Virus record (IMG/VR): IMGVR_UViG_3300043395_002349
Span: 1-64,000 of that record
DNA: 64,000 bases
Source: a virus
Direction: 5' to 3' (one strand)
This document shows positions 9,588-38,229 of this stretch, piece after piece. How positions within the stretch are numbered: the first letter of the stretch is position 1; every line of letters begins with the position of its first letter. The notes beneath the pieces are model-generated. The model made no database searches. It saw only the letters and a list, made by a program, of their open reading frames with translations, and was not told the origin of the DNA. A program made the position numbers and the translations under genes.

Positions 9588-10694
9588 TTATGTGTTACTT
9601 ACAAAATCAATAATAAATTTTATATACAAAGGCATTTCAAAATCATCAACTGCAACAATAGGTTTTATTAAATCAAAATTATGTTTTAACTTTGCTTTTA
9701 TTATACTATCATTGTACATATCATTCGGATATTTGTTAATCATTTCATAGAAATCTTTAAGACCCGCTAAACTATTATCATCAAAGAATGTTTCAAATCC
9801 TATTTCTTTTAAGAATTTAGTTGATGGATATTTGAATGAGAAATCATAAAATATATTACCCATAGCTAAAGGTATTACTGATTTTTCAGTAAGTGTGTAT
9901 CTAGGTATCATTCCTAATCTTTTATAATCTTCTACACTTAAATCAGGATTTTGCGTTTCTACAATTACATAATATTTGTAATCTAATGTATCAACTTTAC
10001 ATTGAACCTGGTTAAACCCTTCGTCTATTGTCCATTTATCATTTGTTATAGTATAATCAAAATCATTCTTTACATTTAAACTATCTATATAATATTTTAC
10101 TTTATTATTATGATGTTCATCTGGTTCACCACAATTATTGTATGTATATTTTAATATTGATTTATCATTTGTACAATAATTTTTTTGTAGTAAATATACT
10201 AAATCCCTATCCCATTTTCTTTTTCCTAAATATGTTTTAATTGTTTTATTTTTGTTTTCATTATATTGTATTTCTTTATAATGCTTACTTCGCCAAATTG
10301 AAATTTGTGCTTCAATTGGAAATGGATAAAAAGTATTATCATCAAACCACTCTTCAATTAAAGAATGATAATTTGGCATATGAGATATTACTGTTTTATT
10401 TCCTTTATAATTTTTAAGAATTGGCATTATAGTGTTTTTCATACGAATTTCATCTACATATTCATGCCTTTCAAATATAATAATTCTGTTGTATCTATTG
10501 ATTAAATCTAAAATATTTGGTAAATCAAAATGTCTACTAAAAATTAACAGAACATCATTCGGTAAAAACGTATCATTTATATTTTTTATAAATCTACACT
10601 TAAAATTAAATAATACATCATCAAGCATATATACTTCTTCACCATTTGTAAAAATATCAATTTGAAAAGAAGTTATTTTTTTATTGCTTTCCAT
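9588..10694 (-). CDS. Putative glycosyltransferase, GT-B-like paralogue 1
   Basis: The 368-residue protein is the last gene of the glycan cassette. Its C-terminal third carries LTEKSVIPLAMGN followed by TKFLKEIGFETFFDD, the same pattern (T-E-K/SEK...P...LK-x-GFxTF) found in four other cassette proteins (11480, 18892, 20181, 23601). I associate it with fucosyltransferase/exostosin-like GT-B enzymes, where this segment binds the nucleotide sugar. The N-terminal 200 residues are AT-rich, charged and diverged. The substrate cannot be read from sequence. Its start overlaps the upstream SGNH gene by 22 bases. A non-catalytic relative remains possible because no catalytic residue can be named with confidence. 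Confidence 0.68.
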   Translation of the reverse strand: MESNKKITSFQIDIFTNGEEVYMLDDVLFNFKCRFIKNINDTFLPNDVLLIFSRHFDLPNILDLINRYNRIIIFERHEYVDEIRMKNTIMPILKNYKGNKTVISHMPNYHSLIEEWFDDNTFYPFPIEAQISIWRSKHYKEIQYNENKNKTIKTYLGKRKWDRDLVYLLQKNYCTNDKSILKYTYNNCGEPDEHHNNKVKYYIDSLNVKNDFDYTITNDKWTIDEGFNQVQCKVDTLDYKYYVIVETQNPDLSVEDYKRLGMIPRYTLTEKSVIPLAMGNIFYDFSFKYPSTKFLKEIGFETFFDDNSLAGLKDFYEMINKYPNDMYNDSIIKAKLKHNFDLIKPIVAVDDFEMPLYIKFIIDFVSNT

Positions 10695-11377
10695 TTATTT
10701 ATTATTTTCTCTGCCAATTGTTTATGTCCCTGTTTATTTAAATGAAATTTTTTATTTCCTATATACAACTCTTTATCTATTTGCCATTTGTGTAATGATA
10801 TGTAATTATCTATTTTCACAATTGTTTCATCTTCTAATTCATTTTCATCAAACCATAATGTTATTAATTTTATTCCTTTTTGCTTACATATATCTTTTAA
10901 GATGTTAAGTTGTATTTGTATTCTTTGTTTTTCTTTCTCTTCATCAAATCCATATACTAAATAATATTGATAAAAGTCCGATAGTGTTTTTACAATATCA
11001 TTTTTATCAAAATCATAATATTTTTTATCATCACCATTATTGAATTTCTTTAATAACTGCTGTTCAGTCCACCAACTCTCTATTTCAAATGATTGATATG
11101 TTAACGATGGTTGAAAATGTATATAATCTTTAACTGCTTTAAACCAAAAGGACATTCTATGTAAATAACTAAACTGAATAATGATTGTATCTATATCGTT
11201 GTATGTATAAATTGATTCATATATTCTATCTAATATATTTTGGTTTGATATACCTTTCTCTGCTAATAATTGTAATTCTAATCCTACATTATTACCAAAT
11301 ATATCAAAATAGCCATCACCATCTACTGCATCGTAATCTCGTATACTATGCGAACAACCGGATACTAAAACCTTCAT
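10673..11377 (-). CDS. SGNH/GDSL hydrolase-like protein 1
   Basis: This 234-residue protein opens with a beta strand and a block I-like nucleophile segment, VLVSGCSHSIRD (Ser 9 candidate), in place of the canonical GDS. It ends with a block V-like segment, FHLNKQGHKQLAEKI, that supplies the catalytic His. The body contains DTIIIQFSYLHRMSFW, like the block III area of related proteins. SGNH enzymes de-acylate or acylate sugars and lipids. In this cassette a role in trimming or adding O-acetyl groups on a glycan is plausible but inferred. It is shorter than the two other SGNH-like proteins (12820 and 14232). Its ATG shares one base with the stop of the small upstream ORF (TAATG). Confidence 0.7.
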   Translation of the reverse strand: MKVLVSGCSHSIRDYDAVDGDGYFDIFGNNVGLELQLLAEKGISNQNILDRIYESIYTYNDIDTIIIQFSYLHRMSFWFKAVKDYIHFQPSLTYQSFEIESWWTEQQLLKKFNNGDDKKYYDFDKNDIVKTLSDFYQYYLVYGFDEEKEKQRIQIQLNILKDICKQKGIKLITLWFDENELEDETIVKIDNYISLHKWQIDKELYIGNKKFHLNKQGHKQLAEKIINKWKAIKK

Positions 11378-11496
11378 TATACATTTTTGTAAATAAATGG
11401 ATCTCTTTTTCTTAATTCTTTTATTTTCTTTTTAAATTCTCTTTTTAATTTCCAAGCTTTATAAATATTTTTAAGCTTATTAAATAATTTTTTCAT
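11377..11496 (-). CDS. Small basic ORF, 39 aa
   Basis: Read by hand between two cassette genes. ATG at 11494-11496, stop at 11377-11379. The product starts MKKLFNKLKNIYKAWKLKR and continues Lys/Arg/Glu-rich, a likely amphipathic helix. Its start lies inside the end of the upstream glycosyltransferase gene (17-base overlap) and its stop forms TAATG with the next start. This is exactly the overlap style of the cassette, which is the main argument that it is translated. It could instead be a coupling leader with no product function, or chance in AT-rich DNA. No function recognised. Confidence 0.5.
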   Translation of the reverse strand: MKKLFNKLKNIYKAWKLKREFKKKIKELRKRDPFIYKNV

Positions 11497-12823
11497 AATA
11501 ATAATCTAATTTAAATTCTTTAAATATATCTGAATAACTATAATTATCTTTTTTTATATTTTCTATTAAAAATCTTTCTATCTGTGCCGTTTTTGAACCA
11601 AATGAATTTAATAAGTTATGATTATGTAAAAGTGAATCAAAATTTTCATTTATTTTATCATGTAATTCTTGTAATGATAATTTATTTAGTTTTTGTATTT
11701 CATACACTATATATTCCATTCTTTTATCATTATCTTCAATATTATCATATTCTTCATTTATCAACCAATCAAAAGTTTTAAATCCAATTTCTTTTAAATA
11801 TTTTAATAAATGTGGCCTACCCACTACTATAAATGGATGAAAATTATATAATGGTTTCCATATTTTTTCTGAAATAAAATCATTATCTATATAAAACGAT
11901 GTTTCTGTGACAATGCTAAAATAGCTGTCTAAATATAAATTTTCGTTTTCATGATGATATCCATTTGTATTTTCTATATCATCTCTATCTGCCACTATTT
12001 TATTTGGCAAAGCATCATATTTTTCTAATAAATTATTTTCAATTAAAAATTTACTTACTTCACCTGTAATTAGGTTTTTATCAAATGATATAATTGAATC
12101 ATTTTTAATATCATTATAAATTTCACAAATTAGTTTAACTCTATGTAAATCAAGTCTTCTGTTTAAACATAAAAATTTATTATTTTTTACTTTTTTATGT
12201 TTTGATTTTAAATCCGTAATTCTATGTTTATTGAAAAAATAAGTTGATGATGCTTTGAGATAGAATGAATAATTTATAATTTTTGCAAATTTTTCAATAT
12301 CATATTTTTCTTTAAATAATTCTAATTTTGTTTTTAAATTATAATCGTTTAAAATTAAAATAATATTATCTAAATTAATATTTCTGTTTTTTGCACCCAA
12401 ATAAATTCCTTTCAATAACCATTCACTTACCCATCCTTCATGTGCATAATTAATAATAATTTTTCCTAAATTATTATTAACATCTTTTACAATTTGAATT
12501 GGAATTTTTTCAAAAAAATTTGCATAATCATCTTTTGCTTCTACATTTAATGAATACATTAAATGACCCCAAGGTTCTATTGGATAATACCATTTATCAT
12601 ATATTTGTTGACCATAGAAAATATGATTTGGTGGTGTCTTTTTTAATCCTAAATTACTTGCCCAAATATTATGTTTTGTTTTAAATTTTTTTTCTAATTC
12701 AAACGATAATTCCGTTGTATTATCATTTTCATTTTTATAAAAAATAAATTCTAAAACTGCTTCATCTAAACAATTTGGAAGAGAATTACCCAAAAACCAC
12801 TTATCATATAATAAATTTATCAT
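11480..12823 (-). CDS. Putative glycosyltransferase, GT-B-like paralogue 2
   Basis: 447 residues. The C-terminal half has the best-preserved version of the family signature: SYFSIVTETSFY, DFISEKIWKPLYNFHPFIVVG and LKYLKEIGFKTFDWLIN, as in fucosyltransferase/exostosin-like GT-B enzymes whose C-domain binds the nucleotide sugar. The middle segment KFLCLNRRLDLHRVKLI is also shared in spirit with the 18892 and 20181 proteins (SFNRNVKREHR, IFNRSVFKDHR), giving a second family motif of the form [L/F]NR...HR. It overlaps the SGNH-like gene upstream by 4 bases (ATGA). Acceptor and donor are unknown. Confidence 0.75.
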   Translation of the reverse strand: MINLLYDKWFLGNSLPNCLDEAVLEFIFYKNENDNTTELSFELEKKFKTKHNIWASNLGLKKTPPNHIFYGQQIYDKWYYPIEPWGHLMYSLNVEAKDDYANFFEKIPIQIVKDVNNNLGKIIINYAHEGWVSEWLLKGIYLGAKNRNINLDNIILILNDYNLKTKLELFKEKYDIEKFAKIINYSFYLKASSTYFFNKHRITDLKSKHKKVKNNKFLCLNRRLDLHRVKLICEIYNDIKNDSIISFDKNLITGEVSKFLIENNLLEKYDALPNKIVADRDDIENTNGYHHENENLYLDSYFSIVTETSFYIDNDFISEKIWKPLYNFHPFIVVGRPHLLKYLKEIGFKTFDWLINEEYDNIEDNDKRMEYIVYEIQKLNKLSLQELHDKINENFDSLLHNHNLLNSFGSKTAQIERFLIENIKKDNYSYSDIFKEFKLDYYYEKII

Positions 12824-13722
12824 ACATTATTTATTTCGTTTTTAATGTATGTTGCAATACTATTTGCAGTTATTCTATGACACTCTATTGTTTGATGATC
12901 ATCATTAACTTTATTTCCATTTAATCTGTAATCCGACTTACTTATCATAAATTTAGGATTATATTGAAATAAATTTACTAACGAGTCAAACTCCTGTCCA
13001 TCATATAAAAGTTTTATGTATCTTTCGTTTAAATAATTATTTTCTTTCAAAAATGGTATGTATTCATTGTGCCAGGTCCATATTCTACATTTAACACCTT
13101 TTTCTTCCAATTCTTTAAATAACTTTTCTACTAATTGTATATTTTGTTTACAAAAATAATCTTCCATTTCTTTATATGAAGAAAAATTATTTATATAAAA
13201 TTGAAAAAATTCTTCATACAATTCATCATCAATTTTTCCTTTAAAATTATCAATTGTATTTTTTTTGGTATTATCCCTCAATCTAATTTGTGCTATATTT
13301 AATGTTACTTTTTTATCTCCCAAATATATTTCATTGTTTCTAAATGGGTCAGTTAATTGTAAAATAACATAATCAATTTCATCAAAATCAAATTTTAAAT
13401 TTAAATCACCATTTAAATAACATTTAGATATTGGATGCTCGCCATGATGACCCATTGAAAATATATATTTTAACCACGCAATAGAACCGTCCTCAGAACC
13501 ACTATTTGTTAATCTATTTACTTCCCATGTCCCTAATTCATTTGCCACTAATCTACTCCATCTATTTGCACAGATAAATTTATATGTAGCATACGAAATA
13601 TATTTTGAATCGAATGTGCCATCGGATATTCTTGCATTTATATCTTTATGATTTGAGTACCATTCTAATCCGCCACCCCAAGTGTGTGAACATCCTATAC
13701 AAACAATACCTTTTTTAAGCAT
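12820..13722 (-). CDS. SGNH/GDSL hydrolase-like protein 2
   Basis: 300 residues. Block I-like GIVCIGCSHTWGGGLEWYS contains the candidate nucleophile Ser. The C-terminal NDDHQTIECHRITANSI carries the His of block V. A central strand DYVILQLTDPFRNNEIY matches DYVVVQLTDMFREEI of the 14232 protein, and NEYIPFLKENNYLNERYIKL matches its IIPFIHTNPFLNERFI segment, so the two are close paralogues. The family is common in phage and bacterial glycan clusters, often called GDSL-like lipase/acylhydrolase or acetylxylan esterase-like. The predicted role is ester hydrolysis or acyl transfer on a sugar, by inference. It overlaps neighbours by 8 and 4 bases. Confidence 0.75.
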   Translation of the reverse strand: MLKKGIVCIGCSHTWGGGLEWYSNHKDINARISDGTFDSKYISYATYKFICANRWSRLVANELGTWEVNRLTNSGSEDGSIAWLKYIFSMGHHGEHPISKCYLNGDLNLKFDFDEIDYVILQLTDPFRNNEIYLGDKKVTLNIAQIRLRDNTKKNTIDNFKGKIDDELYEEFFQFYINNFSSYKEMEDYFCKQNIQLVEKLFKELEEKGVKCRIWTWHNEYIPFLKENNYLNERYIKLLYDGQEFDSLVNLFQYNPKFMISKSDYRLNGNKVNDDHQTIECHRITANSIATYIKNEINNV

Positions 13723-14260
13723 AATATAATTCCGGATATTCTACCAATACATGAATACCACCTTCTTTGGTTGCGTATTTATAAGCTAATTCAATATCGG
13801 TAGGTGTTTTTAAATCGTGAAATTCAATATTTTTACAAATAGATTTAAATTCTTCAAAATAATTTCCTCTATGTTGGTGACCAGGGTCTAATGGTTTATC
13901 TGAACCCTTGCCTAATCTAATAATTAAATTTGGTTTCCATTTTCCATTGCTCATTAGTCCAATCTTATCAACGTGATTTATTAGTTGATTTGCTGCACAA
14001 ATGATAAAATCCCAACGAGGATAAAATGTAACTACAAATTTACCCTGCATAGCCATTCCTAAACTCATACCCATTTGTGATTCTTCCATTACAGGTACTT
14101 CTATCATTAAATCTTTTGATACATTTCCTAATGTTGTACTCATAGGATTTCCAGGATAAACAATCTGTTGCCCTATGAAAACAATATCATCTTTTTTTGC
14201 TAATTCTGTCATTGCATTTGTTAATGCATCTTTATATGGAGTGTATTCTGGTTGACTCAT
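13715..14260 (-). CDS. E1-beta-like thiamine-diphosphate enzyme subunit (pyrimidine-binding domain only)
   Basis: 181 residues resembling the N-terminal (Pyr) domain of 2-oxoacid dehydrogenase/acetoin dehydrogenase E1-beta and transketolase. YKDALTNAMTELAKKDDIVFIG opens the domain. IEVPVMEESQMGMSLGMAM (about 53-71) contains the Glu (E59/E60) expected to contact the aminopyrimidine of ThDP. FVVTFYPRWDFIICAANQL (75-93) follows the E1-beta pattern. The usual C-terminal transketolase domain of about 130 residues is absent. The matching E1-alpha-like half is encoded at 21674-22309, about 7.4 kb away in the same operon. The two could form one heteromeric ThDP enzyme that transfers a two-carbon unit to a keto-sugar. 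Confident of the fold; the reaction is inferred. Confidence 0.82.
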   Translation of the reverse strand: MSQPEYTPYKDALTNAMTELAKKDDIVFIGQQIVYPGNPMSTTLGNVSKDLMIEVPVMEESQMGMSLGMAMQGKFVVTFYPRWDFIICAANQLINHVDKIGLMSNGKWKPNLIIRLGKGSDKPLDPGHQHRGNYFEEFKSICKNIEFHDLKTPTDIELAYKYATKEGGIHVLVEYPELYYA

Positions 14261-15110
14261 TTTCTTCTATTTTTTTAATTATTGATTTTGCTATTATATT
14301 ATGTGCTGTAAGTGATGTATGTCCGTTAACTACTCTGATATTTTTTGTTACAAAATATAAATCATCACTTATGCTCATACTTTTTGGTCTATCGTTTCTA
14401 CTTTGTAAATCCCATATTGAATTAAAAGTATTTCCATCTATATCAAATGTAATAAATCTTTCATTTAAAAAAGGATTAGTATGAATAAATGGTATAATAT
14501 CGTTTTGCCATGTTATTAAAAAACATTTTTTAATTCCTTTATGTTCATATTCTTTAAATTTTGTTTCAATAAAATCTGCATAATTTTTTAAATATGAATT
14601 TGTAAATGTATTTATATCGTTATTAAATTTTTGTTCTATGTATTTATCAAATTTTGAATTTTTTATAGAATGTATATCTCTAATGTTACAACTATTAATT
14701 ATGCCTTCAAATTCAAATTTAATTTCTTCTCTAAACATATCCGTAAGTTGCACTACAACGTAATCGAAATCTTCATGAATAAATTTAAAAGCTCTATGTG
14801 CACCTTCTATTCCTAAATTATATGCATATTGATATGCGTTTTCAATTTTATCAATAAACTCAAAAATTTCAGCATTTGTTCCACCATTATTTCTTCTAAC
14901 TACATCAAATGTTTCAAAATAAGATGAAACTTTTCTTGCATATCTATTACATTTAATAAATTCTACTTGTGATGCTGATAGTTTATTTCTATCATATCCT
15001 ATATATTCATAATCATGTATAGGATTATTGTATTCAAAATGTAAATCTGAATAATAATGTAACCCTTCTCCCCAAGTATACGAATCACCTGCAAATATAA
15101 TACCTTTCAT
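14232..15110 (-). CDS. SGNH/GDSL hydrolase-like protein 3
   Basis: 292 residues with the most canonical block I of the three paralogues: IFAGDSYTWGEGLHYYSD, Ser of GDS as nucleophile. The C-terminus VVNGHTSLTAHNIIAKSI supplies the candidate catalytic His. The central DYVVVQLTDMFREEI is shared with the 12820 protein. Expected activity is esterase or acyl transfer on carbohydrate, as in other glycan loci. The start forms TAATG with the stop of the upstream epimerase gene, and the 3' end overlaps the E1-beta-like gene by 29 bases. Confidence 0.78.
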   Translation of the reverse strand: MKGIIFAGDSYTWGEGLHYYSDLHFEYNNPIHDYEYIGYDRNKLSASQVEFIKCNRYARKVSSYFETFDVVRRNNGGTNAEIFEFIDKIENAYQYAYNLGIEGAHRAFKFIHEDFDYVVVQLTDMFREEIKFEFEGIINSCNIRDIHSIKNSKFDKYIEQKFNNDINTFTNSYLKNYADFIETKFKEYEHKGIKKCFLITWQNDIIPFIHTNPFLNERFITFDIDGNTFNSIWDLQSRNDRPKSMSISDDLYFVTKNIRVVNGHTSLTAHNIIAKSIIKKIEENESTRIHSI

Positions 15111-16087
15111 TAGTTATTAAATTCATCTTTATGTTCTAAATACCACTCATATGCATTTGCCAACCCATCTTCTAATTTAGTTGTTGCTTGCCATCCTAAT
15201 TTATCATAAATCTTAAATGAATCAATCTTACGCGTTGGAATCATAGAAGGTTTACCTTTAATAAATTCAGTTGGTGCATCAAAATTTGCAATTCGTTTCA
15301 TTGCTTCTAATACTTCTAATACCGAATATACTCTATTAGAACCAATATTGTAAACTTGAAAATCTTCTGTTTCTTTTTCCATAACAATTTGCAATGCTTC
15401 ACAAAAATCTTCAATGTATAATAAATCTCTCAATTCACTACCATCACCCCAAATTGGAATAGGATTCATTTTATCTGCCACTTTTCTTATTGTTGCTGGA
15501 GTAACATGGCATTTATTAAAATCATACTTATCATGCGGTCCAAATAAATTTGCAGGTCTTATTACGGTACATTTCATTGTTGTAGGTAAATATTTTGCAT
15601 ATAATTCACATTGAACCTCTGCATATCTTTTCATCCAACCAACTGGAAAATAAACAGTATATGGAGCATCAAATAAGAAATCAGTTTCTACTACCGGTTT
15701 ATCTCCTTTTGGTGGATAAACAGTATTTGATGATAAGAAAATATAATGTTGAATTTTATTTCTCCAACTTGCATCAATTAAAAAATTATTCATTGCTACG
15801 TTTGGAGTAACATGTGCCAATGGGTCAACAACAGTGTCTACTGCATTTGAAGTACTTGCTGCACAATGATATACTACATCTATATCTTTAGTTGCTGCTA
15901 AACATCCTTCATACGTTTTTAAATCATAGTGTGTATACTCAACACCATCCAATTGTGTTCTTACACCTCTATTGTGTAAATTAATTCTTAAATTTTTATA
16001 ACCTTGTTTATATAATCTATTTGTTAAGTTTTGGCCAACTAAACCGGAACCACCTGTAATTAGGATTTTTGAATCTTTTGTAATCAT
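15110..16087 (-). CDS. NAD-dependent epimerase/dehydratase-like protein with altered catalytic motif
   Basis: 325 residues, an extended short-chain dehydrogenase of the nucleotide-sugar epimerase type. A Rossmann motif TGGSGLVG lies at 11-18, YHCAAST at 73-79, LSSNTVYP (the Ser region) at 118-125, RPANLFGPHD later, and a substrate-binding segment IWGDGSELRDLLYIED. The general look is GDP-fucose synthase-like. The catalytic YxxxK is not intact: around Lys153 the sequence reads YFPVGWMKR, with Val149 where Tyr is expected and the nearest Tyr at 146. The paralogue at 17954 has the same deviation. It may use another residue, catalyse a different step, or be a binding partner. Confidence 0.85.
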   Translation of the reverse strand: MITKDSKILITGGSGLVGQNLTNRLYKQGYKNLRINLHNRGVRTQLDGVEYTHYDLKTYEGCLAATKDIDVVYHCAASTSNAVDTVVDPLAHVTPNVAMNNFLIDASWRNKIQHYIFLSSNTVYPPKGDKPVVETDFLFDAPYTVYFPVGWMKRYAEVQCELYAKYLPTTMKCTVIRPANLFGPHDKYDFNKCHVTPATIRKVADKMNPIPIWGDGSELRDLLYIEDFCEALQIVMEKETEDFQVYNIGSNRVYSVLEVLEAMKRIANFDAPTEFIKGKPSMIPTRKIDSFKIYDKLGWQATTKLEDGLANAYEWYLEHKDEFNN

Positions 16088-16090
16088 ATT

Positions 16091-16753
16091 TTAATTTTCT
16101 TTGTAATTTAAATTTTTTTCTTTCATTATAAATGCTATTAAAGCCTTTCTGTTAAATATATCAGAAGTTACTTTTTTAACTTCGTGTTCTAAATTTCCAG
16201 TTATAAAATCTAATATTGCTATATTTCCAAACTTAGGTTCTATTTCAATTTTGTTTCCATTTTCATCGGTTATTATCAATTCACCACCCATACCCTTTTC
16301 CCAATCTTTATTTAAATATAAAATAATAACACATAATCTTTTATCATCATTATCATATCCATCTTTATGATTTTTTATAAAACATCCATTATTATAAATT
16401 GATATATTAAATGATGGAGCCCCAAATACATATTGATTTGAATAAAATTCTCTTAATTTAGTGTAGCAATACTGCCCAAGTTCATTTGTTCCAAATATTT
16501 CATTAGTTTTTGATTGAAACCAAAATTGAACAATATCTTTATTATTTAATAATTTTTCTTTTTTTTCATTTTGTATTGCAAAAGTATCATTTTGAATTAT
16601 TTTTACATTATTTACTTCATTTTTAGATAAAATAATTTCAAAACTATCTTCTATTGCTGGTAAGTCAATATATACTTTTTCTAGTAAATTTTCGTATTTT
16701 TCACCAAAAAAATCAATTCCACTTCCTATAATATATCCGTTATCAATTTTCAT
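16091..16753 (-). CDS. 2-oxoglutarate/Fe(II)-dependent oxygenase (prolyl-4-hydroxylase-like) 1
   Basis: 220 residues. The C-terminal double-stranded beta-helix has the iron triad in NHKDG (H129, D131) and EHEVKKV (H190), and R202 in NRKALIAF to bind the 2-oxoglutarate carboxylate. The flanking GGELII and FGNIAILDF strands are characteristic. These enzymes hydroxylate protein or small-molecule carbons. With glycosyltransferases around it, a hydroxylated side chain could be a glycan acceptor, but that is inference. It overlaps the 16743 oxygenase gene by 11 bases, giving an adjacent pair. Confidence 0.9.
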   Translation of the reverse strand: MKIDNGYIIGSGIDFFGEKYENLLEKVYIDLPAIEDSFEIILSKNEVNNVKIIQNDTFAIQNEKKEKLLNNKDIVQFWFQSKTNEIFGTNELGQYCYTKLREFYSNQYVFGAPSFNISIYNNGCFIKNHKDGYDNDDKRLCVIILYLNKDWEKGMGGELIITDENGNKIEIEPKFGNIAILDFITGNLEHEVKKVTSDIFNRKALIAFIMKEKNLNYKEN

Positions 16754-17469: not shown

Positions 17470-17985
17470 TTAAATAAGTTTTAATGCTACTTTTTTCTCC
17501 TCTACTCTTGTATTTTCAATTGCAATTAATTCATGTAATTCTCTTCTAATAGAATCCAATCTTTTTCTATCTTCAGATAAATTATCTTCTAATTCTTTTT
17601 CCTTGTCTTTTCTTATTTTTTGATTATACTTGTTCAAATCATCCACAATTTCTTTTCTTAATTTGGAAACTCTTTTTCTTTCTTTTTCTAGTTCTTTTTC
17701 TAAACCCTCTACTTTTTCTTTTTTTATTTTTTCAATTTCTAATTGTGTCAATTCTTCGTATTCTTTATGAATTTTTGCTAATTCATCACCTAAATTTTTT
17801 CTAAGTGTATCAACACGTTCTCTATCCATTGCAATTGAATCTTCTGTTTCTTGTATTTCTTTCCACTCATAATATAATCTGCTGCGCTCGATCATTATTT
17901 TTTCTCGCTCTGCATTAATTATATTTTTTTGTTTTTCTAAATACTCTAATTCTCTATCTATTTCTTTTTGAGATATAACTTTCAT
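17470..17985 (-). CDS. Coiled-coil protein
   Basis: 171 residues, nearly all Glu/Lys/Arg/Leu/Ile with heptad-like spacing from about residue 5 to 160 (for example KEIDRELEYLEKQKNI and LRKEIVDDLNKYNQKIRK), so a long continuous coiled coil is expected. There is no signal peptide, membrane segment or enzyme motif. It lies between an epimerase gene and two oxygenase genes, overlapping the former by 32 bases. It might scaffold cassette enzymes or be a virion component; neither is shown. Confidence 0.75.
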   Translation of the reverse strand: MKVISQKEIDRELEYLEKQKNIINAEREKIMIERSRLYYEWKEIQETEDSIAMDRERVDTLRKNLGDELAKIHKEYEELTQLEIEKIKKEKVEGLEKELEKERKRVSKLRKEIVDDLNKYNQKIRKDKEKELEDNLSEDRKRLDSIRRELHELIAIENTRVEEKKVALKLI

Positions 17986-31318: not shown

Positions 31319-32736
31319 TATAAATTAACTTTTATTTTTATTGCGTTATTTGTTATATCTTCTCGTTCTACTTCTTTATACACACAGGTATTTAATCCAT
31401 CTATACTCAAATCTACAACATTTCCCTTCATTTCATTATAAAATCTTTCCTGATTTTTTCTAGTTTCAGAATGTACCCAATTATTTCCTATTGTAGAATT
31501 GGAAGTATGTTTTAATGTTTTAAATTTACCTTCTCTACGAATTGGTACAATTATATCTGTCTGAAATTTATCTAACATTACATCATCTTCACAGTTATAA
31601 ATCAATCCATTATTTTTATTTCCACTTAAATCTTGTAATATATCACCTTTAAAATTTTTAAAATCATAATAACATTTTAAAAACTTTGATTTGTTATATT
31701 TTTTAAAATCATTTACAATAGATTTATACAAAGAATTTTCATAAATATCTTTTATATTATTTTCATCTAATGCAATATTCCAAATAGCGAACTCTGCTAT
31801 TAATCCTTTAAAATAAAATTGATTAGTATCTAATGTAGGATTACCAGCACCTAAATACAAATAATCCACATCATATGGAAATATTTGCTCAGTTATTTCT
31901 TTTTTATCTACTAATTCACCATTCATATAAAAACAAAATTCATCATCTGTTTTTGTTATTACTAAATGTGACCAAATTTCATTTAATATTTCGGTTTGAA
32001 TTGATATAGATTTATCATCTTTTGTCCACATTTCACCTTTATATCTTTTGAATGATGTATATGATATACCTGTATTTCTACCTGGTATTGATACAATTTG
32101 ATATTCATCAAAGTCAGTATTAAGTGAAGTTTTACAATCTTCTGGTTTTATTTTTATTGAAATTGTAAAGTCATTATTAAAGATTGATGTTAAATTTTTG
32201 TATGGAACTTTTACATAAGAACTTTTTCCATCAAATTTAAAATAATTAATTAAATAATTTTTATCTTCAATACCAAATGAAATTTTATCTAATGGAATAT
32301 TTCTCTGAATGCATCTATAAAGTAAATCGTCATCTTCAAATCCCCAACCCCAATACTCATTGGAATATCCATTAACAAGTTTGTAATCATGCACATTAAA
32401 CAAAGTAACTCCACCAAAATAATCCATAAATGGAATATCTTTGTTTATTTTAGAAACTAAATGAATAGGTGTTTCTGAATATGAATAATCCACTCCTTTT
32501 AAGGGTAACATATCCACATCATGTAATGCAAAATAATCAAACCCCTCTTTAATAGCAATTCTAGCACCTACATTTAGAAGTTTACCTCTATTAAAAGGTT
32601 TATTATCATTTTGTTCAATGACAAAGATTTTGTAATCGTAATCCTTTAAATATTCTTGCATATAAGGAACGAAAACTTCTAAATGAGATTGTCTGTCTCT
32701 ATAAGGAACTATTATTGCTAATTTCTTATTCTTCAT
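31318..32736 (-). CDS. GT7-like glycosyltransferase with nested LamG domain, copy 2
   Basis: 472 residues from ATG 32734-32736. I prefer this start because the product then begins MKNKKLAIIVPYRDR, like copy 3; an in-frame ATG five codons upstream (32751) exists. GT7 motifs: PFNRGKLLNVG, LHDVDMLP (D73, D75), YFGGVTLF and NEYWGWGFEDDDL, intact. A LamG-like domain spans about 155-385 and ends LSGNKNNGLIYN. VPIRREGKFKTLKH and DGLNTCVYKEV complete the transferase fold. It is expected to act in the cytoplasm on a nucleotide sugar, with the lectin perhaps holding the acceptor glycan or glycoprotein. Middle of a tandem array with copies 1 and 3. Confidence 0.88.
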   Translation of the reverse strand: MKNKKLAIIVPYRDRQSHLEVFVPYMQEYLKDYDYKIFVIEQNDNKPFNRGKLLNVGARIAIKEGFDYFALHDVDMLPLKGVDYSYSETPIHLVSKINKDIPFMDYFGGVTLFNVHDYKLVNGYSNEYWGWGFEDDDLLYRCIQRNIPLDKISFGIEDKNYLINYFKFDGKSSYVKVPYKNLTSIFNNDFTISIKIKPEDCKTSLNTDFDEYQIVSIPGRNTGISYTSFKRYKGEMWTKDDKSISIQTEILNEIWSHLVITKTDDEFCFYMNGELVDKKEITEQIFPYDVDYLYLGAGNPTLDTNQFYFKGLIAEFAIWNIALDENNIKDIYENSLYKSIVNDFKKYNKSKFLKCYYDFKNFKGDILQDLSGNKNNGLIYNCEDDVMLDKFQTDIIVPIRREGKFKTLKHTSNSTIGNNWVHSETRKNQERFYNEMKGNVVDLSIDGLNTCVYKEVEREDITNNAIKIKVNL

Positions 32737-32959
32737 TAAAATCTCTTTCAATTCCCTTGTCAGGTCTTGTAGAAGAACCTACACTTTTAGTTTTAGCTAT
32801 GTTATAAAATTCATTCAAATACCATTCTAATCTTGTAGACCATCCTGCGGTATCTAAATCGTATAACCAATCACTAATGTCTTGCATAGAGTGTGCAATA
32901 CTTTCTAAAGCCTTTACACCTCTTTCTTCTGTTGATAATTCTGTTTTTTTGTCTGCCAT
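32726..32959 (-). CDS. Small acidic helical protein, unknown
   Basis: 77 residues, no cysteines, predicted mostly helical (VKALESIAHSMQDISDWLYD). No motif recognised. It lies between two GT7-LamG genes and overlaps the start of copy 2 by 11 bases. Its conservation of overlaps and sensible composition support translation. It may be an accessory or structural component; nothing more can be said. Confidence 0.6.
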   Translation of the reverse strand: MADKKTELSTEERGVKALESIAHSMQDISDWLYDLDTAGWSTRLEWYLNEFYNIAKTKSVGSSTRPDKGIERDFNEE

Positions 32960-32969
32960 ATTATTTGTT

Positions 32970-33275
32970 TTAATAATTTAATAATTTATTTATAACTTCA
33001 TCAAATACTATTTTTTCATGTCCTTCTACCCAAACCTTATCTTTTATTTGTTTTAATTTTTCTCTTTCTACAACAAATTTTTCATATTGTAACACATATT
33101 CAAACGTATTAGAACCATTCGGATGATATATTTTCATTAAACCTTCCATACATAAAATAAATTTAGGTAAGAAAAATTTAAAATCTCCTTTTCCTTCTTT
33201 TAATGTTTGAAACTCTTCTGCAATTTGCTCTAATTTTTTTACAAAAGTTTCATTATTTAATAAATCTTTTATCAT
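32970..33275 (-). CDS. Small hypothetical protein, 101 aa
   Basis: From the ATG at 33273-33275, which overlaps the stop of GT7 copy 3 as ATGA; an upstream in-frame ATG at 33293 is the alternative and would add six residues. The product is charged and helical (TFVKKLEQIAEEFQTLKEG, EREKLKQIKDKVWVEG), without transmembrane or catalytic motifs. It sits with the 77-aa gene between GT7 copies 2 and 3, suggesting that these two small genes travelled or were inserted together within the GT7 array. No family recognised. Confidence 0.62.
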   Translation of the reverse strand: MIKDLLNNETFVKKLEQIAEEFQTLKEGKGDFKFFLPKFILCMEGLMKIYHPNGSNTFEYVLQYEKFVVEREKLKQIKDKVWVEGHEKIVFDEVINKLLNY

Positions 33276-34753
33276 AAAATAATTTTTAACCATTCAGTTT
33301 TTTTATCAAAACTTTCTTGTTTTACTAATTTAAATTTAATATTACTTAATCCTATTTTATTTGTAGGAATTTTCTTTGTTAATATATCATTAAAAAATAT
33401 ATCACCATTTTCTAAAATGTCAGGATCATATGATTTATATCTTTCTACTATATCCGTATCGTTTTCATGTGGTAATGATTGGAAATTGGCTTCTATTCTT
33501 TTTGGTAATTTTATTTTAGAAGTTTTTAATATTTCATCTTCTTTTAAATAAGCTGAATAATTACTACCAAAGTTATTATAAACCGTTGCGTGATTATGAT
33601 TTTTTGTTTCATCTATTATAAAATTTTTATAAAACTTTGTAAAACTATATTTTACAACTGGTTCGAATTGTGTTTGTAATTTTCTATTAAATACTAATCC
33701 ATTTAAATACAAATTTTTGATTTCAGAATCACTTAATACATAATCAAAAAAATATAAATTTGCTAACTTTCCTCTAAATAAATTTTTGTTGTGTGAACCT
33801 GCTCCTAAATAAATTTTATCTTTTGTGTAATCCCATAATGGTAATTCAAAGTCAGTAAGAGTATCTTGTTTTTTACCTTCTTCAAATGTATCTACTATCA
33901 ATCGTAGTTTATTAGAATCAAAATCCATTATACATACAATGTGATGCCATTGATTTGGTGCTAATTTTCTATAATTAAAATAATATTTTTTATCTTTACC
34001 CCAAAAATTAAATCTTAATGTATTATCTGGTTGAATAGAAATTCCACTATTAAATCCTGGAAATGAAATAACATATTGTTCATCTTTAACAAATTCATCA
34101 AAATTAATCCAGGCTGAAATTGTAAATGAATCCGCGGTAATTCCTTTTAAAAATTTATTTGGTATAATTTCAACTTGTGTTTCACCATCAAAATTTAAAT
34201 ATGTTATCTTTTCTTTTTTTATAGAATCAGTAATTCTTAATCTATCTATTTCGTAATTATTATCTATTCGTGGATAAACATATTCGGAATCTAATTTAAT
34301 ACCGTTTTGTTCCATTCTAAATAATAAATCTAAATCCGTATATCCCCAACCATAATATTCATTTGAGTATCCATTTATTGATTGAAAATCTTCTTTAGAA
34401 ATAATAAAAACACCACCTGTGTATTGTAAATATGGTAAGGTATTTTCGTGAACTTGTACTCTTGTTGCTAAATGTGTTGGTATTTTTTTATACGAATAAT
34501 CTGCTTTATCTGATGTTGGTAACATATCTACATCGTGAAAACAGAAATAATCATACTCATCTTTTAATAAATGAAATGCAGAGTTACAAAGTTTTCCATA
34601 ATTAAATGGTTTATCATCGCTTTGTTCAATTACAAATATTTTATAATCAAAATTTTTATCTTTTAGAAACGATTGTATGTGTGGCAAGAAAATATCAAGA
34701 TGTTCTCTCCTATCTCTATACGGAACAATAATTGCTAATTTATGTTTATCCAT
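33272..34753 (-). CDS. GT7-like glycosyltransferase with nested LamG domain, copy 3, altered acidic loop
   Basis: 493 residues. Same architecture as the two copies downstream: GT7 N-part (IIVPYRDRREHL, KPFNYGKLCN, FHDVDMLPT with D74 and D76, YTGGVFII), LamG-like insertion at about 175-410, then KLPKRIEANFQSLPH and IGLSNIKFKLV. The acceptor loop differs: YYGWGYTDLDLLFR instead of WGWGxEDDDL, so the Glu and the second Asp are replaced by Thr and Leu while the first and third acidic positions remain. FNRGK is also FNYGK. This suggests a changed acceptor or donor preference rather than loss of function, but that needs modelling. It precedes a 35-base gap, one of the longest in the cassette. Confidence 0.86.
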   Translation of the reverse strand: MDKHKLAIIVPYRDRREHLDIFLPHIQSFLKDKNFDYKIFVIEQSDDKPFNYGKLCNSAFHLLKDEYDYFCFHDVDMLPTSDKADYSYKKIPTHLATRVQVHENTLPYLQYTGGVFIISKEDFQSINGYSNEYYGWGYTDLDLLFRMEQNGIKLDSEYVYPRIDNNYEIDRLRITDSIKKEKITYLNFDGETQVEIIPNKFLKGITADSFTISAWINFDEFVKDEQYVISFPGFNSGISIQPDNTLRFNFWGKDKKYYFNYRKLAPNQWHHIVCIMDFDSNKLRLIVDTFEEGKKQDTLTDFELPLWDYTKDKIYLGAGSHNKNLFRGKLANLYFFDYVLSDSEIKNLYLNGLVFNRKLQTQFEPVVKYSFTKFYKNFIIDETKNHNHATVYNNFGSNYSAYLKEDEILKTSKIKLPKRIEANFQSLPHENDTDIVERYKSYDPDILENGDIFFNDILTKKIPTNKIGLSNIKFKLVKQESFDKKTEWLKIIL

Positions 34754-34788
34754 ACCTAAATGTAACGAAGTTTTACTATAAAACCAAA

Positions 34789-35628
34789 TTAAATTGATTG
34801 AATCTTTTTGAAAAGTTTATCCCAGTGTGAATATCCCCATATTCCACAATTTTCAATCATAAACCTCTCATCATATATATCAATTTTAAAATTATTTGAT
34901 TTTATAGCATCATACATTTTCTGATATTCATTAGAATAAGAATGTTCTTTTTTAATATCCGCAACTGCTTTAATTCTTTCTACACAAGTACTATCCCACT
35001 TAAAATGATTAACTATAACATTGTATCTATCGGTAGGTGCAATTAATGGATGATTCCAACCTTGCCATTTCCAAGTTGTTTGCCCGTCTATTTTTGCGTA
35101 ATGTTGACCAGGTGTAAGTTCTACATATCCCTTCATTATACAAACTTTATTAGGGCATGCACCCGAAAGTGGATATCTAAAAAATCCTGCTAATGGAAAT
35201 TGTTTAAATATGTCTTCGTTTTCTTTTATCTCTACAAATTCACCATCTATACCAATTCTATCTACAAAACCACCTCTAACTAATTCCCATCCATTTATTT
35301 CACATTCTTCTATTATAGAATCTATATCCTTTGAATATTCATGAAATTCATCATCATCTGCTACAATCCACCAATCATTAGGATGTAATAATTTAGTTTG
35401 ATTGTATAAATGAGTAACATGTTCCCAATTAAATTTTTCTTTTTTAGAACGTTTGATTATTTGTACATTTGGAAAATTTGATGCAATTTTTTTAACTTCA
35501 TCATATGTACTCATGTCATCCCATTCGTACACAACCACATAAATCTCATCTACTAAATTTTCATAATAAGAAAAAAAATGGTTAAGAGTATTTGTTCTAC
35601 TTCCTGTAACTGTAACTAATCTTGTCAT
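34789..35628 (-). CDS. GT2/GT92-like glycosyltransferase
   Basis: 279 residues. The N-terminus LVTVTGSRTNTLNHFFSYYE and EIYVVVYEWDD form a Rossmann-like GT-A start. DWWIVADDDEFHEY (about 95-108) contains the DxD that binds the metal-nucleotide sugar. Later HYAKIDGQTTWKWQGWNHP and VNHFKWDS have the His residues often seen in GT92-like enzymes. No membrane segment. ATGA overlap with the epimerase gene upstream. Likely a soluble transferase adding one sugar in the cassette's glycan. Linkage unknown. Confidence 0.82.
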   Translation of the reverse strand: MTRLVTVTGSRTNTLNHFFSYYENLVDEIYVVVYEWDDMSTYDEVKKIASNFPNVQIIKRSKKEKFNWEHVTHLYNQTKLLHPNDWWIVADDDEFHEYSKDIDSIIEECEINGWELVRGGFVDRIGIDGEFVEIKENEDIFKQFPLAGFFRYPLSGACPNKVCIMKGYVELTPGQHYAKIDGQTTWKWQGWNHPLIAPTDRYNVIVNHFKWDSTCVERIKAVADIKKEHSYSNEYQKMYDAIKSNNFKIDIYDERFMIENCGIWGYSHWDKLFKKIQSI

Positions 35629-36467
35629 AAACTATTTATATATTCTTTTAATTTATCTTTGGGGTGCCAATTTAATTTTTCTACATCATTATTTAATCGT
35701 TTTCCGTTTTTATAATTTCCTAAAACAGATGCTGCATATCTAACTTTTAACTTTCCAAATTTCTCTTCAAACATTTTAAAAATTTGTATAATACTATATG
35801 ATTTTGTATTTCCCATTTCCCAACCTGAAAGGTTTTTCTTCTTAGTTGTTAAAAGTATTTCTAAACCATCAACTACATCATCTATATGTGTAAATGCTCT
35901 ATGAGGCATTCCTAATTGATGTATTGTTATATGTTTTTTATTTTTAATTTGGTTTCTCCATTTGCCAATCAACGCTGCCATATGTGATTCTACTAATTCA
36001 CCTGGTCCGTAAACGTTATATAATCTTACAATTGTAATATCCATTTTTAATCCATCTCTATAAAATCTACATAATTCTTCACCCATTCTTTTTGATGTTG
36101 AATATGGTGATATAGAGTGATGAATTGATGATGAACTACTGAAAATAACTTTACAATTATTTCTAAGTGCATAATCTAATACTTCTTTAGTACCCGTTAC
36201 ATTTACTGAATATGTAATGTTTTGATTTTTGTATGAAGGTAAGACTCTACTATATGCTGCTAAATGATAGATACAATCATAATGTTTATTTGGTATATTT
36301 CCCATTGCTCTAATATCACCACCTAAAAAGTTAGCACCTTCTACTATTTCTGCTTCTTTTCCAATATAAAGATTATCTATAATATCAACTTCATACCCTT
36401 TATCTAAAAATCGTTTGGTTAACGCTTTGCCAATAAAACCACAACCACCTGTAATTAGTATTTTCAT
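35625..36467 (-). CDS. NAD-dependent nucleotide-sugar epimerase/dehydratase (canonical)
   Basis: 280 residues, complete extended SDR. TGGCGFIG (6-13) binds NAD(P); SSSSIHHSISPYSTSKRMGE supplies Ser, Tyr122 and Lys126 of the catalytic set; VRLYNVYGPGE and TKSYSIIQIFKMFEEKFG are typical of UDP-glucose 4-epimerase and dTDP-glucose dehydratase relatives. It is a little shorter than average. ATGA overlaps at both ends place it in a tight GT2-epimerase-methyltransferase-GT4 group (34789-38229). Substrate unknown; C4 epimerase is the commonest role for this look. Confidence 0.92.
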   Translation of the reverse strand: MKILITGGCGFIGKALTKRFLDKGYEVDIIDNLYIGKEAEIVEGANFLGGDIRAMGNIPNKHYDCIYHLAAYSRVLPSYKNQNITYSVNVTGTKEVLDYALRNNCKVIFSSSSSIHHSISPYSTSKRMGEELCRFYRDGLKMDITIVRLYNVYGPGELVESHMAALIGKWRNQIKNKKHITIHQLGMPHRAFTHIDDVVDGLEILLTTKKKNLSGWEMGNTKSYSIIQIFKMFEEKFGKLKVRYAASVLGNYKNGKRLNNDVEKLNWHPKDKLKEYINSL

Positions 36468-37219
36468 TTTCTTCTTACTAAAGTTAATCCTGTTGATGCC
36501 GGTTTATTTTTTATGATACCAAAATTGAATAGGTCAAACACTTGCCATTTTTCAGTATCTATTTCTTTTGCTAATTGAATCGGCCCATTCCAATCATCGA
36601 AATCACCTCTGTCTTTAACCTCATTTGTGACTATGTATTTATCTGCGTAATTAGGGTCAGTATCATGAATTGAAATAATACCATTTTCATTTACTAATTG
36701 AGAATATAATTCAAAATCTTCTTTTACGTTTTCGTAACTATGACCGGCATCAATATGTAAATAATCAATCTTAATATCATTTAATACAAAGAAATTATGA
36801 AATGCATTTGCAGTTGTGTCATTTATAATTCTAGGTGAAAATAATCTTCTAAAGAAACTTTCTTCTTTAAACCAATTTACATTACCACCTATACCATTCA
36901 TCGCATCTACAACATAAGTTGTTCCAATATCACCCCAACTTTTATCATTGTTTCCTTCAAAAATATTTTGAGAATGTAAATCCATTCTAGCCTGTGTCAT
37001 TATTCTAGGTATAAATCCACCACCGCTTCCTAAACATACACATACCTTTGCTCTCATATACTGAATTAGTGAATATACGATTAACCCATCTCCGAGATGG
37101 TCATCTGTTGCACCATGTGACCAACGATATGGGACATCTTTTAAAACTTCTTCACCAACTTCATTAAATTCTTGGTTATTTGTAATAAATTCTTTAACGT
37201 AACTTTTATTAATTATCAT
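36464..37219 (-). CDS. Class I SAM-dependent methyltransferase (Methyltransf_24-like)
   Basis: 251 residues. KVCVCLGSGGGFIPRIMTQA is the glycine-rich SAM-binding loop. IDYLHIDAGHSYENVKEDF and GIISIHDTDPNYADKY follow the pattern of the Methyltransf_24/cephalosporin hydroxylase-like group, in which the acidic and His residues also bind a metal. Such enzymes O-methylate sugars or small molecules. Terminal sugar O-methylation is a common capping step in surface glycans, so that is the favoured role here, by inference. ATGA overlaps with both neighbours. Confidence 0.85.
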   Translation of the reverse strand: MIINKSYVKEFITNNQEFNEVGEEVLKDVPYRWSHGATDDHLGDGLIVYSLIQYMRAKVCVCLGSGGGFIPRIMTQARMDLHSQNIFEGNNDKSWGDIGTTYVVDAMNGIGGNVNWFKEESFFRRLFSPRIINDTTANAFHNFFVLNDIKIDYLHIDAGHSYENVKEDFELYSQLVNENGIISIHDTDPNYADKYIVTNEVKDRGDFDDWNGPIQLAKEIDTEKWQVFDLFNFGIIKNKPASTGLTLVRRK

Positions 37220-38229
37220 TTGTTTAATAGGTTTACAATTTCATAAATCCATTCTTCTTTGTTAGTATAAGATTCTAATTCATCTTTTAGTTTATCAAAC
37301 CAATATTGTCTTTCTACTTCAAAATCATTACACATTGTTTGATACACTTTTTTAAATTCTTCTTTTGTTGATGCTCTATATTTGTAATCAATATTAGGTA
37401 ACCAATATTTGTGTATAATTGGAAGTTTACCATAATCAATTGCGTTGAATATAGAATAACCAAACGGTTCATTTACATAACAAGCGTGAAATGGTGTAAA
37501 CTCTAAGTTAAAAAAATTTTTGTGATTTTCCAAAGAATATGGATAAAATCTTATTTTTCGTAAATCTAAGTTTAGCCCTTCTTTTAAATTTTCAAACCCT
37601 ATTTTATCCGTACATGCAAATCCTTTCATACCATCTAAAAAATGAAAACATTTACGAGTTTCACTTCTTGCTGCATATCCTATTTTTTCACTTTCCCATT
37701 TATATTCTCTTTGTTCTTTCCATTCATAATAGTTTGGTATATTAATAGTTTTATTTTTAAAATCTTTTTGAACCATTCCATTATTACATCCTATCCAAAT
37801 TATTTTTTTACATTGATTTAATACATCTTGTTCCCATTGTAAATCCATAGTAGTAGGTAACCAAACTCTATCTAATCCTAAATCTATATTTGTATTTATA
37901 ATTTCTTTAATATAAGCGTGACAAAATATGGTATGAAATTTATGTTTATATTCCCACAATTCATCTCTACGGAAATAGTTGTTATGTAAAAAATGTATTT
38001 TTCTTGCATTTCTTAATATTGGTTCTACTAACAATGGTGCTTCTTTTGTAAACACATATTTACAAGGAATAGATAGTGGATTAAATCCAACTGGCTTTTT
38101 ACTATCAATTAACAGAACAATAGGGTAGTTTAAATATGGTACTACATATTCTATAAATTTGTTTACCCAAATATCACTACCACCAAATGTAACATTTCCG
38201 GCGCCCGTTGTAACTAAAACATCAAACAT
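37216..38229 (-). CDS. GT4-like GT-B glycosyltransferase
   Basis: 337 residues, first gene of the cassette after the tail-fibre unit. VLVTTGAGNVTFGGSDIWVN is a GT-B N-terminal glycine-rich start. CYVNEPFGYSIFNAIDYGKL corresponds to the E-x7-E region of GT4, but the second Glu is Asn (EPFGYSIFN). KIIWIGCNNGMVQKDF lies before it. It is slightly short for GT4. The altered motif may change donor handling. Gap of 8 bases to the small gene upstream, ATGA overlap with the methyltransferase. Confidence 0.78.
   Translation of the reverse strand: MFDVLVTTGAGNVTFGGSDIWVNKFIEYVVPYLNYPIVLLIDSKKPVGFNPLSIPCKYVFTKEAPLLVEPILRNARKIHFLHNNYFRRDELWEYKHKFHTIFCHAYIKEIINTNIDLGLDRVWLPTTMDLQWEQDVLNQCKKIIWIGCNNGMVQKDFKNKTINIPNYYEWKEQREYKWESEKIGYAARSETRKCFHFLDGMKGFACTDKIGFENLKEGLNLDLRKIRFYPYSLENHKNFFNLEFTPFHACYVNEPFGYSIFNAIDYGKLPIIHKYWLPNIDYKYRASTKEEFKKVYQTMCNDFEVERQYWFDKLKDELESYTNKEEWIYEIVNLLNK

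Follow-up and report, generated by a model that had tools for sequence, protein, structure and literature searches.

Large sugar gene clusters in marine T4-like phages have long been known without a proven function, and "stuffer DNA" was still an open reading of them. In cyanophages S-SSM7 and P-SSM2, they account for most of the extra genome size, and what they do there is likewise open (PMC3037559). In pelagimyophages, a hypervariable host-recognition region at the tail fibers carries glycosyltransferases together with radical S-adenosylmethionine (SAM) cassettes (Zaragoza-Solas 2020; PMC7029224), and the moraphages, large aquatic phages with predicted Flavobacteriia hosts, have four core glycosyltransferase groups (PMC12619734). 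Here, we analyzed a stretch of 64,000 nucleotides (hereafter, the window), i.e., positions 1-64000 of the 100,089-base linear virus record IMGVR_UViG_3300043395_002349, which carries a cassette of 32 co-directional open reading frames (ORFs) on the minus strand (9588-38504), directly behind a tail-fiber gene. As a whole, this cassette is best explained as a phage-encoded glycan pathway, probably expressed late with the fiber, whose product would be an unusual branched sugar, most likely carried by the tail fiber. We give this reading a probability of about 0.55; the sugar structure, the acceptor, the timing and the benefit are what we infer. The features are listed below, from the fiber to the far end of the cassette; labels such as L007, L117 or L298 designate sequence stretches fetched around homologues.

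42995-43003, minus: ATATTTATA late-promoter-like element, 22 nt upstream of the tail-fiber start
38509-42972, minus: tail fiber, 1487 aa, 25% Ser+Thr, C-terminal S74 chaperone domain; proposed acceptor
38238-38504, minus: 88-aa ORF between fiber and cassette, no function assigned
37216-38229, minus: GTf, glycosyltransferase of predicted GT-B fold, first core gene
36464-37219, minus: MT, class I methyltransferase (Methyltransf_24, E 1.7e-10)
35625-36467, minus: SDR4, nucleotide-sugar epimerase/dehydratase family (short-chain dehydrogenase/reductase, SDR), YxxxK present (PF01370, 3.4e-41)
34789-35628, minus: GT2-like glycosyltransferase (PF13704, 1.6e-5, slightly below the gathering score)
33272-34753, minus: GT7c, GT7 domain + LamG (PF13733, 7e-25; LamG, 2.4e-21), altered GWGYTDLD motif
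32970-33293, minus: 107-aa ORF, no function assigned, present in five close relatives
32726-32959, minus: 77-aa ORF, no function assigned
31318-32751, minus: GT7b, GT7 domain + LamG, motifs HDVD and GWGFEDDD
29873-31318, minus: GT7a, beta-1,4-galactosyltransferase-like + LamG, motifs HDID and WDWGMEDDD
28482-29873, minus: rSAM2, twitch-domain radical SAM protein (NF033640, 322 bits)
27796-28482, minus: stand-alone LamG-like domain (hidden Markov model, HMM, from the GT7 LamG domains, 2.9e-5)
26827-27795, minus: SDR3, GalE/RmlB-like SDR, YxxxK present
25275-26825, minus: rSAM1, twitch-domain radical SAM protein (NF033640, 315 bits)
24740-25288, minus: RmlC-type 3,5-epimerase (PF00908, 4.8e-32)
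23601-24740, minus: ORF claimed earlier as a glycosyltransferase, no family found
22919-23614, minus: 2-oxoglutarate (2OG)-Fe(II) oxygenase (P4H-like), HxD...H (PF13640, 1.5e-14)
22306-22932, minus: short DegT-family protein, 208 aa, SFHxxK lysine motif (PF01041, 4.3e-21)
21674-22309, minus: thiamine diphosphate (ThDP) enzyme, PDH-E1-alpha-like half, 211 aa (PF00676, 6e-17)
20181-21689, minus: GTc, GTa-family putative glycosyltransferase (GTa HMM, 1.4e-53)
18892-20184, minus: GTb, GTa-family putative glycosyltransferase (GTa HMM, 1.6e-39)
17954-18892, minus: SDR2, SDR without the canonical YxxxK Tyr (PF01370, 3.6e-41)
17470-17985, minus: coiled-coil-like 171-aa protein, no convincing family
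16743-17468, minus: 2OG-Fe(II) oxygenase (P4H-like), HDD...H (PF13640, 9e-7)
16091-16753, minus: 2OG-Fe(II) oxygenase (P4H-like) (PF13640, 9.2e-13)
15110-16087, minus: SDR1, GDP-fucose-synthase-like, without the canonical YxxxK Tyr (PF01370, 5.2e-42; NF047922, 2.6e-41)
14232-15110, minus: SGNH-like hydrolase, S10, N75 and H264 invariant over 15 homologues
13715-14260, minus: ThDP enzyme, PDH-E1-beta-like Pyr half, 181 aa (PF02779, 1.1e-7)
12820-13722, minus: SGNH-like hydrolase, invariant Ser/Gly/Asn/His columns
11480-12823, minus: GTa, founder of a large, putatively new GT-B-like family (139 homologous ORFs)
10673-11377, minus: SGNH-like protein by its sequence (N-terminal GCSHS motif), present in close relative L261
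9588-10694, minus: ORF claimed earlier as a glycosyltransferase, no family found

Between 9588 and 38229, the minus strand contains 30 ORFs of at least 80 aa, to which the 77-aa (32726-32959) and 88-aa (38238-38504) ORFs are added, and 23 of the 31 gene junctions overlap. A preliminary description of this DNA had announced about 32 same-direction genes, lying between the tail fiber and the polyvalent/terminase genes and mostly overlapping by 1-14 bases. Number, direction and location (fiber at 38509-42972; NMNAT-polyvalent gene at 4852-9564) were borne out, as was the overlapping itself, but its range is 1 to 32 bases. The four SDR "epimerases", RmlC, the methyltransferase, the three 2OG oxygenases and the two radical SAM proteins that it named are all Pfam-positive. 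So are its DegT-type aminotransferase, which proves to be a conserved short form (about 209 aa), and both halves of its two-part ThDP enzyme, which are 7.4 kb apart in the window because other genes lie between them. For two of its three SGNH proteins, the Ser/Gly/Asn/His columns show no variation among 15 homologues, and the third is recognized by the GCSHS motif in its sequence. Only eight of its ten glycosyltransferases are supported, those at 9588-10694 and 23601-24740 being the two left aside. It had also called the size of the pathway remarkable: T4-like cyanophages have clusters as large or larger (S-SSM7, P-SSM2, S-SM2; PMC3037559), and novelty lies in which enzymes are combined, in the conservation of this mix and in its fixed place behind an S74-type fiber. 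A PHROGs search with the unannotated cassette genes gave nothing usable. The half-length form of the DegT-family protein (22306-22932), with its pyridoxal-phosphate lysine motif retained, is conserved across seven phage loci, and two further 2OG oxygenases are encoded immediately upstream of the fiber (42994-44411).

The cassette resembles the cyanophage "lipopolysaccharide (LPS)" clusters (S-SM2, P-TIM68, S-SSM7, P-SSM2) in that a T4-like phage carries many packed sugar genes, with SDRs and glycosyltransferases. In S-SM2 and P-TIM68, the resemblance extends to a homologous ThDP enzyme, the remaining matches being just generic SDRs. However, the cyanophage clusters lie near tRNAs and hli genes and contain heptose enzymes, kinases and a Zn-alcohol dehydrogenase; moreover, the ThDP halves of S-SM2 and P-TIM68 are fused into one protein, and none of the GT7, radical SAM or RmlC genes in the cassette has a match in these two phages. 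Rather than beside tRNAs, hli or phoH, the cassette sits between the fiber and the NMNAT-polyvalent gene, and a tRNA search of the window found none. The pelagimyophage region differs, by its description, in its GT8-type enzymes and varying content, and the description of moraphages mentions no radical SAM protein, epimerase or oxygenase. As in virion glycosylation of the mycobacteriophage type, glycosyltransferase genes stand beside virion genes (fiber-like ORF upstream in 50/57 loci). Large sugar clusters in T4-like phages are already known, whereas the combination of GT7-LamG, twitch radical SAM and RmlC-ThDP genes, their conserved order and selection, their fixed place behind an S74-type fiber, and the S74 link in predatory bacteria are new.

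Homologues are frequent in IMG/VR, with 226 contigs matched by GT7a, at least 598 by rSAM1 and 44 by ThDP alpha (contigs counted may be redundant). In the best 80 of the 226 GT7a loci, GT7b and rSAM2 are always present (80/80 each), followed by GT2 (76), MT (75), GTf (69), SDR3 (60), ThDP alpha (53) and RmlC (50). The conserved order is GTf-MT-GT2-(GT7c)-GT7b-GT7a-rSAM2-(rSAM1)-SDR3-RmlC-ThDP alpha-...-SDR2-SDR1-...-ThDP beta. The search for the same gene order elsewhere, proposed in the preliminary description, thus succeeded: this order recurs in dozens of IMG/VR contigs, far beyond chance. Among cultured phages (50,697 records), we found no GT7-LamG match and only a distant radical SAM protein, a nucleotide search with the cassette returned nothing, and the closest ThDP relatives are those of S-SM2 and P-TIM68. 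As judged by these searches, no cultured phage appears to have the whole cassette, and no bacterial locus with the full gene set was found. The phage cassette also turns up in L123, L134 and L135, contigs from GTDB bins that bear the names Gammaproteobacteria, Pelagibacterales and Flavobacteriales; they are probably phage contigs binned with bacteria.

Selection was estimated against the homologous contig 3300042562_000747. The dN/dS ratio is 0.08-0.17 for MT, GT7a-c, rSAM1/2, RmlC, ThDP, SDR1 and SDR2, and 0.11 for TerL, showing that most of the cassette core (0.08-0.21) is under TerL-like purifying selection (for instance, MT is 90% identical in a relative, with a dN/dS of 0.08). It reaches 0.21-0.30 for SDR3, GTf, GT2, GTb and GTc, and 0.34-0.53 for the LamG, 2OG and SGNH genes. 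Core genes that are conserved beside decorating genes that change fast form the pattern that a variable surface glycan would show, whatever its attachment site.

The carrier of the cassette is a large uncultivated T4-like myovirus. Its TerL is 55% identical to that of Flavobacterium phage immuto and 53% to that of Microcystis phage Mel-JY01, two T4-like phages with which synteny covers tail, baseplate, primase, SbcC-like, NMNAT-polyvalent and TerL genes. Between the exonuclease and NMNAT genes, immuto has a single gene and Mel-JY01 a few, among them a FkbM methyltransferase; in L298, whose TerL is 62.5% identical, only three genes separate fiber and NMNAT-polyvalent. Because one or few genes occupy this place in these relatives, the cassette is an optional island inserted at a fixed site, directly downstream of the tail fiber and before the NMNAT-polyvalent/TerL genes. 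Its GC content differs little from the rest (26.7% vs 28.2%). The 1570-aa NMNAT-like/polyvalent protein (4852-9564) that adjoins it recurs at the cassette end in many relatives. The host is probably a member of the Bacteroidota, which fits, without proving it, with a Shine-Dalgarno signal not above background (6/108 genes vs 8%). The Bacteroidota TAnnTTTG promoter shows no enrichment; one Bacteroidota-promoter-like TTTG-N20-TACATTTA lies ahead of GT7c (34754-34788), without statistical support.

The eight supported glycosyltransferases comprise three GT7/beta-4-GalT enzymes with LamG, one GT2-like, one of GT-B fold (GTf) and three of the GTa family. GT7a matches mammalian beta-1,4-galactosyltransferase 1 (beta4GalT1) with an E value of 2e-30, and both of its catalytic motifs are retained in 75/75 distinct homologues. 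Membership of the GT7 family is indicated by GT7N/GT7C domains and motifs of the HDxD and WGWGxEDDD types, the second being altered in GT7c. On the other hand, no hydrophobic segment corresponding to the type II membrane anchor of animal GT7 enzymes is present in the cassette GT7s, which are soluble LamG fusions instead. When alignments of the GTf, GTa, SGNH and MT proteins were used as profiles against the PDB, no sequence relatives emerged; folds were therefore predicted for two proteins, GTf and GTa. The AlphaFold2 model of GTf (pLDDT 93.2) has GT4-type glycosyltransferases as top PDB folds (E 7.8e-10), while that of GTa (pLDDT 89.5) gives weak GT-B matches (E 4.5e-4). By the GTa HMM, GTa, GTb and GTc form one family, a putatively new, weakly GT-B-like one of glycosyltransferases.

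Concerning the sugar itself, the ThDP halves (211 and 181 aa) keep their lengths over 100 and 65 ORFs. Alpha and beta occur together in 41/44 loci, RmlC is present in 38/44 ThDP-alpha loci, and in some phages four genes form a minimal operon, SDR3-RmlC-ThDP alpha-ThDP beta, in which the halves are only 21-22 bases apart. The fused protein of S-SM2 (SSM2_198) matches the alpha half at 44% and the beta half at 33%. We examined 15 phage records of 100-336 kb, selected by their ThDP alpha or GT7a gene and with that of the window among them: all 15 carry two or three GT7 genes, even the records of L146, L148, L161 and L162, which were picked for ThDP alpha and whose fetched stretches show none. Thus, the ThDP and GT7 modules travel together. 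A PDH-E1-like alpha/beta pair together with a 3,5-epimerase accompanies C2-branched deoxysugars in AviB1/AviB2 (with the iron enzyme AviO2), Pau11/Pau12 and Plm8/Plm9 with Plm42 (PMC4425429, PMC4802897, PMC4753412). The avilamycin and paulomycin (Pau11/12 = Plm8/9) pairs are clustered, as here, with deoxysugar enzymes and glycosyltransferases; they differ in being full-length subunits (325/345 aa) from antibiotic clusters, whereas the phage halves are minimal and their activity is predicted. By this analogy of family and company, ThDP and RmlC suggest a C2-branched deoxysugar. SDR1 (15110-16087) and SDR2 (17954-18892) are highly conserved, and most of their homologues lack the YxxxK tyrosine (FPVGWMKR, WFPSWSKR).

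Several observations point indirectly to the fiber as acceptor. Its S74 domain is detected at E 5.9e-4, and at 1.2e-19 with an iterated S74 HMM. In 50 of the 57 loci with enough sequence, an ORF of 604-1908 aa with 21-29% Ser+Thr lies upstream of GTf, ending within 800 bases in 42/57, and many of these fiber-like ORFs end in an S74 chaperone domain. On its coding strand, the record contains 14 copies of the ATATTTATA element, 11 of them within 45 nt upstream of a start; the opposite strand has none. In the window, its sites (1936, 4837, 11460, 42995, 51095, 53071, 55021 and 60128, minus strand) are mostly 4-25 nt upstream of starts; their total number is not above chance, strand and position alone being so. 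One copy precedes the fiber, another is found at 11460 with none between, and the same element lies ahead of the fiber in several relatives. ATATTTATA, which differs from T4 TATAAATA, is our candidate for a late promoter specific to the phage. The T4 TATAAATA late promoter itself was rejected, as it shows no coding-strand enrichment. The cassette proteins include none with a multi-span hydrophobic profile, and, unlike in Wzx/Wzy-type O-antigen or capsule loci, neither a Wzx-type flippase (PF01943; 0/15 phage records vs 13/14 control genomes) nor an initiating polyprenyl-phosphate phosphoglycosyltransferase (PF02397; 0/15 vs 9/14) was detected.

The radical SAM proteins provide another pointer. 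Both belong to N_Twi_rSAM (NCBIfam NF033640), scoring far above the curated cut-off of 170 bits, and CxxxCxxC is retained in 140/140 rSAM2 homologues. Outside phages, relatives of rSAM1 come mostly from Bdellovibrionota, whose genomes hold 5-28 matches to the family each (E up to 0.001). In Halobacteriovorax, genes for a radical SAM protein, PqqD and an S74 protein of 144-150 aa are contiguous in this order (L117:9968-12198, L129:9971-12180, L122:1639-3888); in L117, two DegT aminotransferases and two SGNH proteins come after them. Of 40 bacterial rSAM loci taken without selection, 8 have S74 inside the fetched stretch, although most of these bacterial genomes hold only 0-2 S74 genes. This 8/40 is the fair figure, a whole-genome S74/rSAM distance test being biased by its eight genomes chosen after an S74 was seen. 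The bacterial linkage is an independent pointer to fiber-type proteins. Since radical SAM enzymes have PqqD as a peptide-binding partner, a polypeptide substrate is favored; Pfam recognized no PqqD/RRE or precursor peptide in the phage cassette, PqqD being found only in the bacterial relatives. Bdellovibrio uses S74 fibers (PMC10769870), its mosaic adhesive trimer (MAT) fibers being phage-type, S74-chaperoned and trimeric; the Bacteriovoracaceae loci, in which an S74 protein stands beside the same radical SAM family, differ in that no GT7/RmlC/ThDP set was found there. Tentatively, N_Twi_rSAM might include a dedicated modifier of S74-chaperoned trimeric fibers, common to large phages and predatory Bdellovibrionota and coupled in these phages to a cytoplasmic pathway leading a C2-branched sugar chain onto the tail fiber. 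In large phages (L007-L033, L037-L083), tandem arrays of further rSAM paralogues (20-30% identity) are found behind rSAM1, often with GTa-family genes and in many cases without GT7.

In the pathway that we propose, the cassette would probably be transcribed late together with the fiber. A nucleotide-deoxysugar taken from the host would be reshaped by SDR3, RmlC and SDR1/SDR2. As has been suggested for the sugars of avilamycin and paulomycin, pyruvate would then probably supply a two-carbon branch, added by the minimal two-part ThDP enzyme. The soluble glycosyltransferases (GTf, GT2-like, LamG-carrying GT7 and GTa family) would build the chain in the cytoplasm, where the methyltransferase, 2OG oxygenases and SGNH proteins may decorate it. 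The product would most likely be joined to the Ser/Thr-rich S74 fiber encoded immediately upstream, and the twitch radical SAM enzymes may modify the fiber polypeptide or its sugar. A fiber shield or a changed specificity is the likely benefit. The unusual sugar chain made late on virion proteins, already suggested in the preliminary description, is the best-supported reading, on the indirect evidence of the conserved fiber linkage, the uninterrupted gene run behind a late-promoter-like motif, the lack of lipid-carrier export genes and the S74-rSAM linkage in bacteria.

Several points weigh against it. Fibers being generally Ser/Thr-rich, this richness alone means little, and fiber neighborhoods are also hot spots for unrelated cargo. 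The missing Wzx is not proof, since phages can hijack host export machinery. The bacterial S74-rSAM link is confined to related Bacteriovoracaceae and, the genomes being related, may reflect one or few events; an S74 neighbor was found in just 1 of 47 phage loci with rSAM arrays but no GT7, so the link does not extend to phage N_Twi_rSAM as a whole. In L007, L148 and L161-L164, the ThDP module either runs on the opposite strand or lies at a distance from the GT7 genes. Moreover, the pathway cannot be called self-contained, as it had been: no RmlA-type nucleotidyltransferase (NTP_transferase) was found in the 100-kb record (1/15 phage records), and no clear 4,6-dehydratase feeds it, SDR3 being GalE/RmlB-like but, by eye, without the RmlB-type DE motif. 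As the record lacks RmlA, the host or an unsequenced part of the genome must supply the precursors.

The products could instead alter the LPS, capsule or glycoproteins of the host during infection, blocking other phages or masking receptors. This is the published reading of the cyanophage and pelagimyophage clusters (PMC7029224, PMC3037559); RmlC, SDR, SGNH and methyltransferase genes are typical of O-antigen loci, and the variable accessory genes (SGNH, 2OG, LamG; dN/dS 0.34-0.53) resemble serotype diversification. We nevertheless hold it to be rather unlikely, given a gene run without flippase, initiating transferase or membrane-spanning protein, which begins at a tail fiber with a late-type motif and includes a radical SAM family linked to S74 fiber-type proteins outside phages. 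Somewhat less probable still is the glycosylation of another virion part, such as capsid, tail tube, baseplate or a LamG tail protein, in place of the S74 fiber. Mycobacteriophages are known to bear glycans on capsid and tail tube (as cited in PMC12619734), and a 1688-aa tail protein (55057-60123) has a LamG-like domain (residues 1005-1128), as the GT7 enzymes do. However, its similarity to the GT7 LamG domains is weak (E 0.0017), and the conserved neighbor of the cassette is the fiber, not capsid or tube genes.

The twitch radical SAM proteins and their bacterial PqqD partner also recall ribosomally synthesized and post-translationally modified peptide (RiPP) systems, in which case the enzymes would act on a small peptide to yield a diffusible or secreted glycopeptide during infection; with no PqqD, precursor peptide or exporter recognized by Pfam in the cassette and small ORFs poorly conserved, this is very improbable. 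Chances are slighter again that the glycosyltransferases decorate modified bases against restriction. Phage glycosyltransferases acting on hydroxymethylated bases are established and 2OG oxygenases are present, but the latter match P4H-type Pfam families, not Tet_JBP (whose absence is weak evidence, as the search detected no control). Thymidylate-synthase-family matches occur in just 5/15 records and not in the 100-kb one, and LamG domains and the S74 linkage do not fit; DNA glycosylation is thus disfavored on gene content. Finally, non-functional stuffer DNA, raised as a possibility for the cyanophage LPS clusters (PMC3037559), or recent bacterial cargo would agree with relatives that live without the cassette. 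This we regard as scarcely credible given that dN/dS is low and that gene order and catalytic motifs are maintained across dozens of contigs, and in view of the lack of any bacterial locus found with the full set; the selection analysis leads us to reject stuffer DNA.

To the old question of the sugar clusters in marine T4-like phages, the glycan pathway proposed here brings a specific predicted sugar chemistry and acceptor, which makes their function testable. If it is true, hundreds of uncultivated aquatic phages would carry glycosylated tail fibers, which bears on host range, virion recognition and counter-defense. The S74-radical SAM link, if true, would provide the first substrate hypothesis for a large orphan family of radical SAM proteins.

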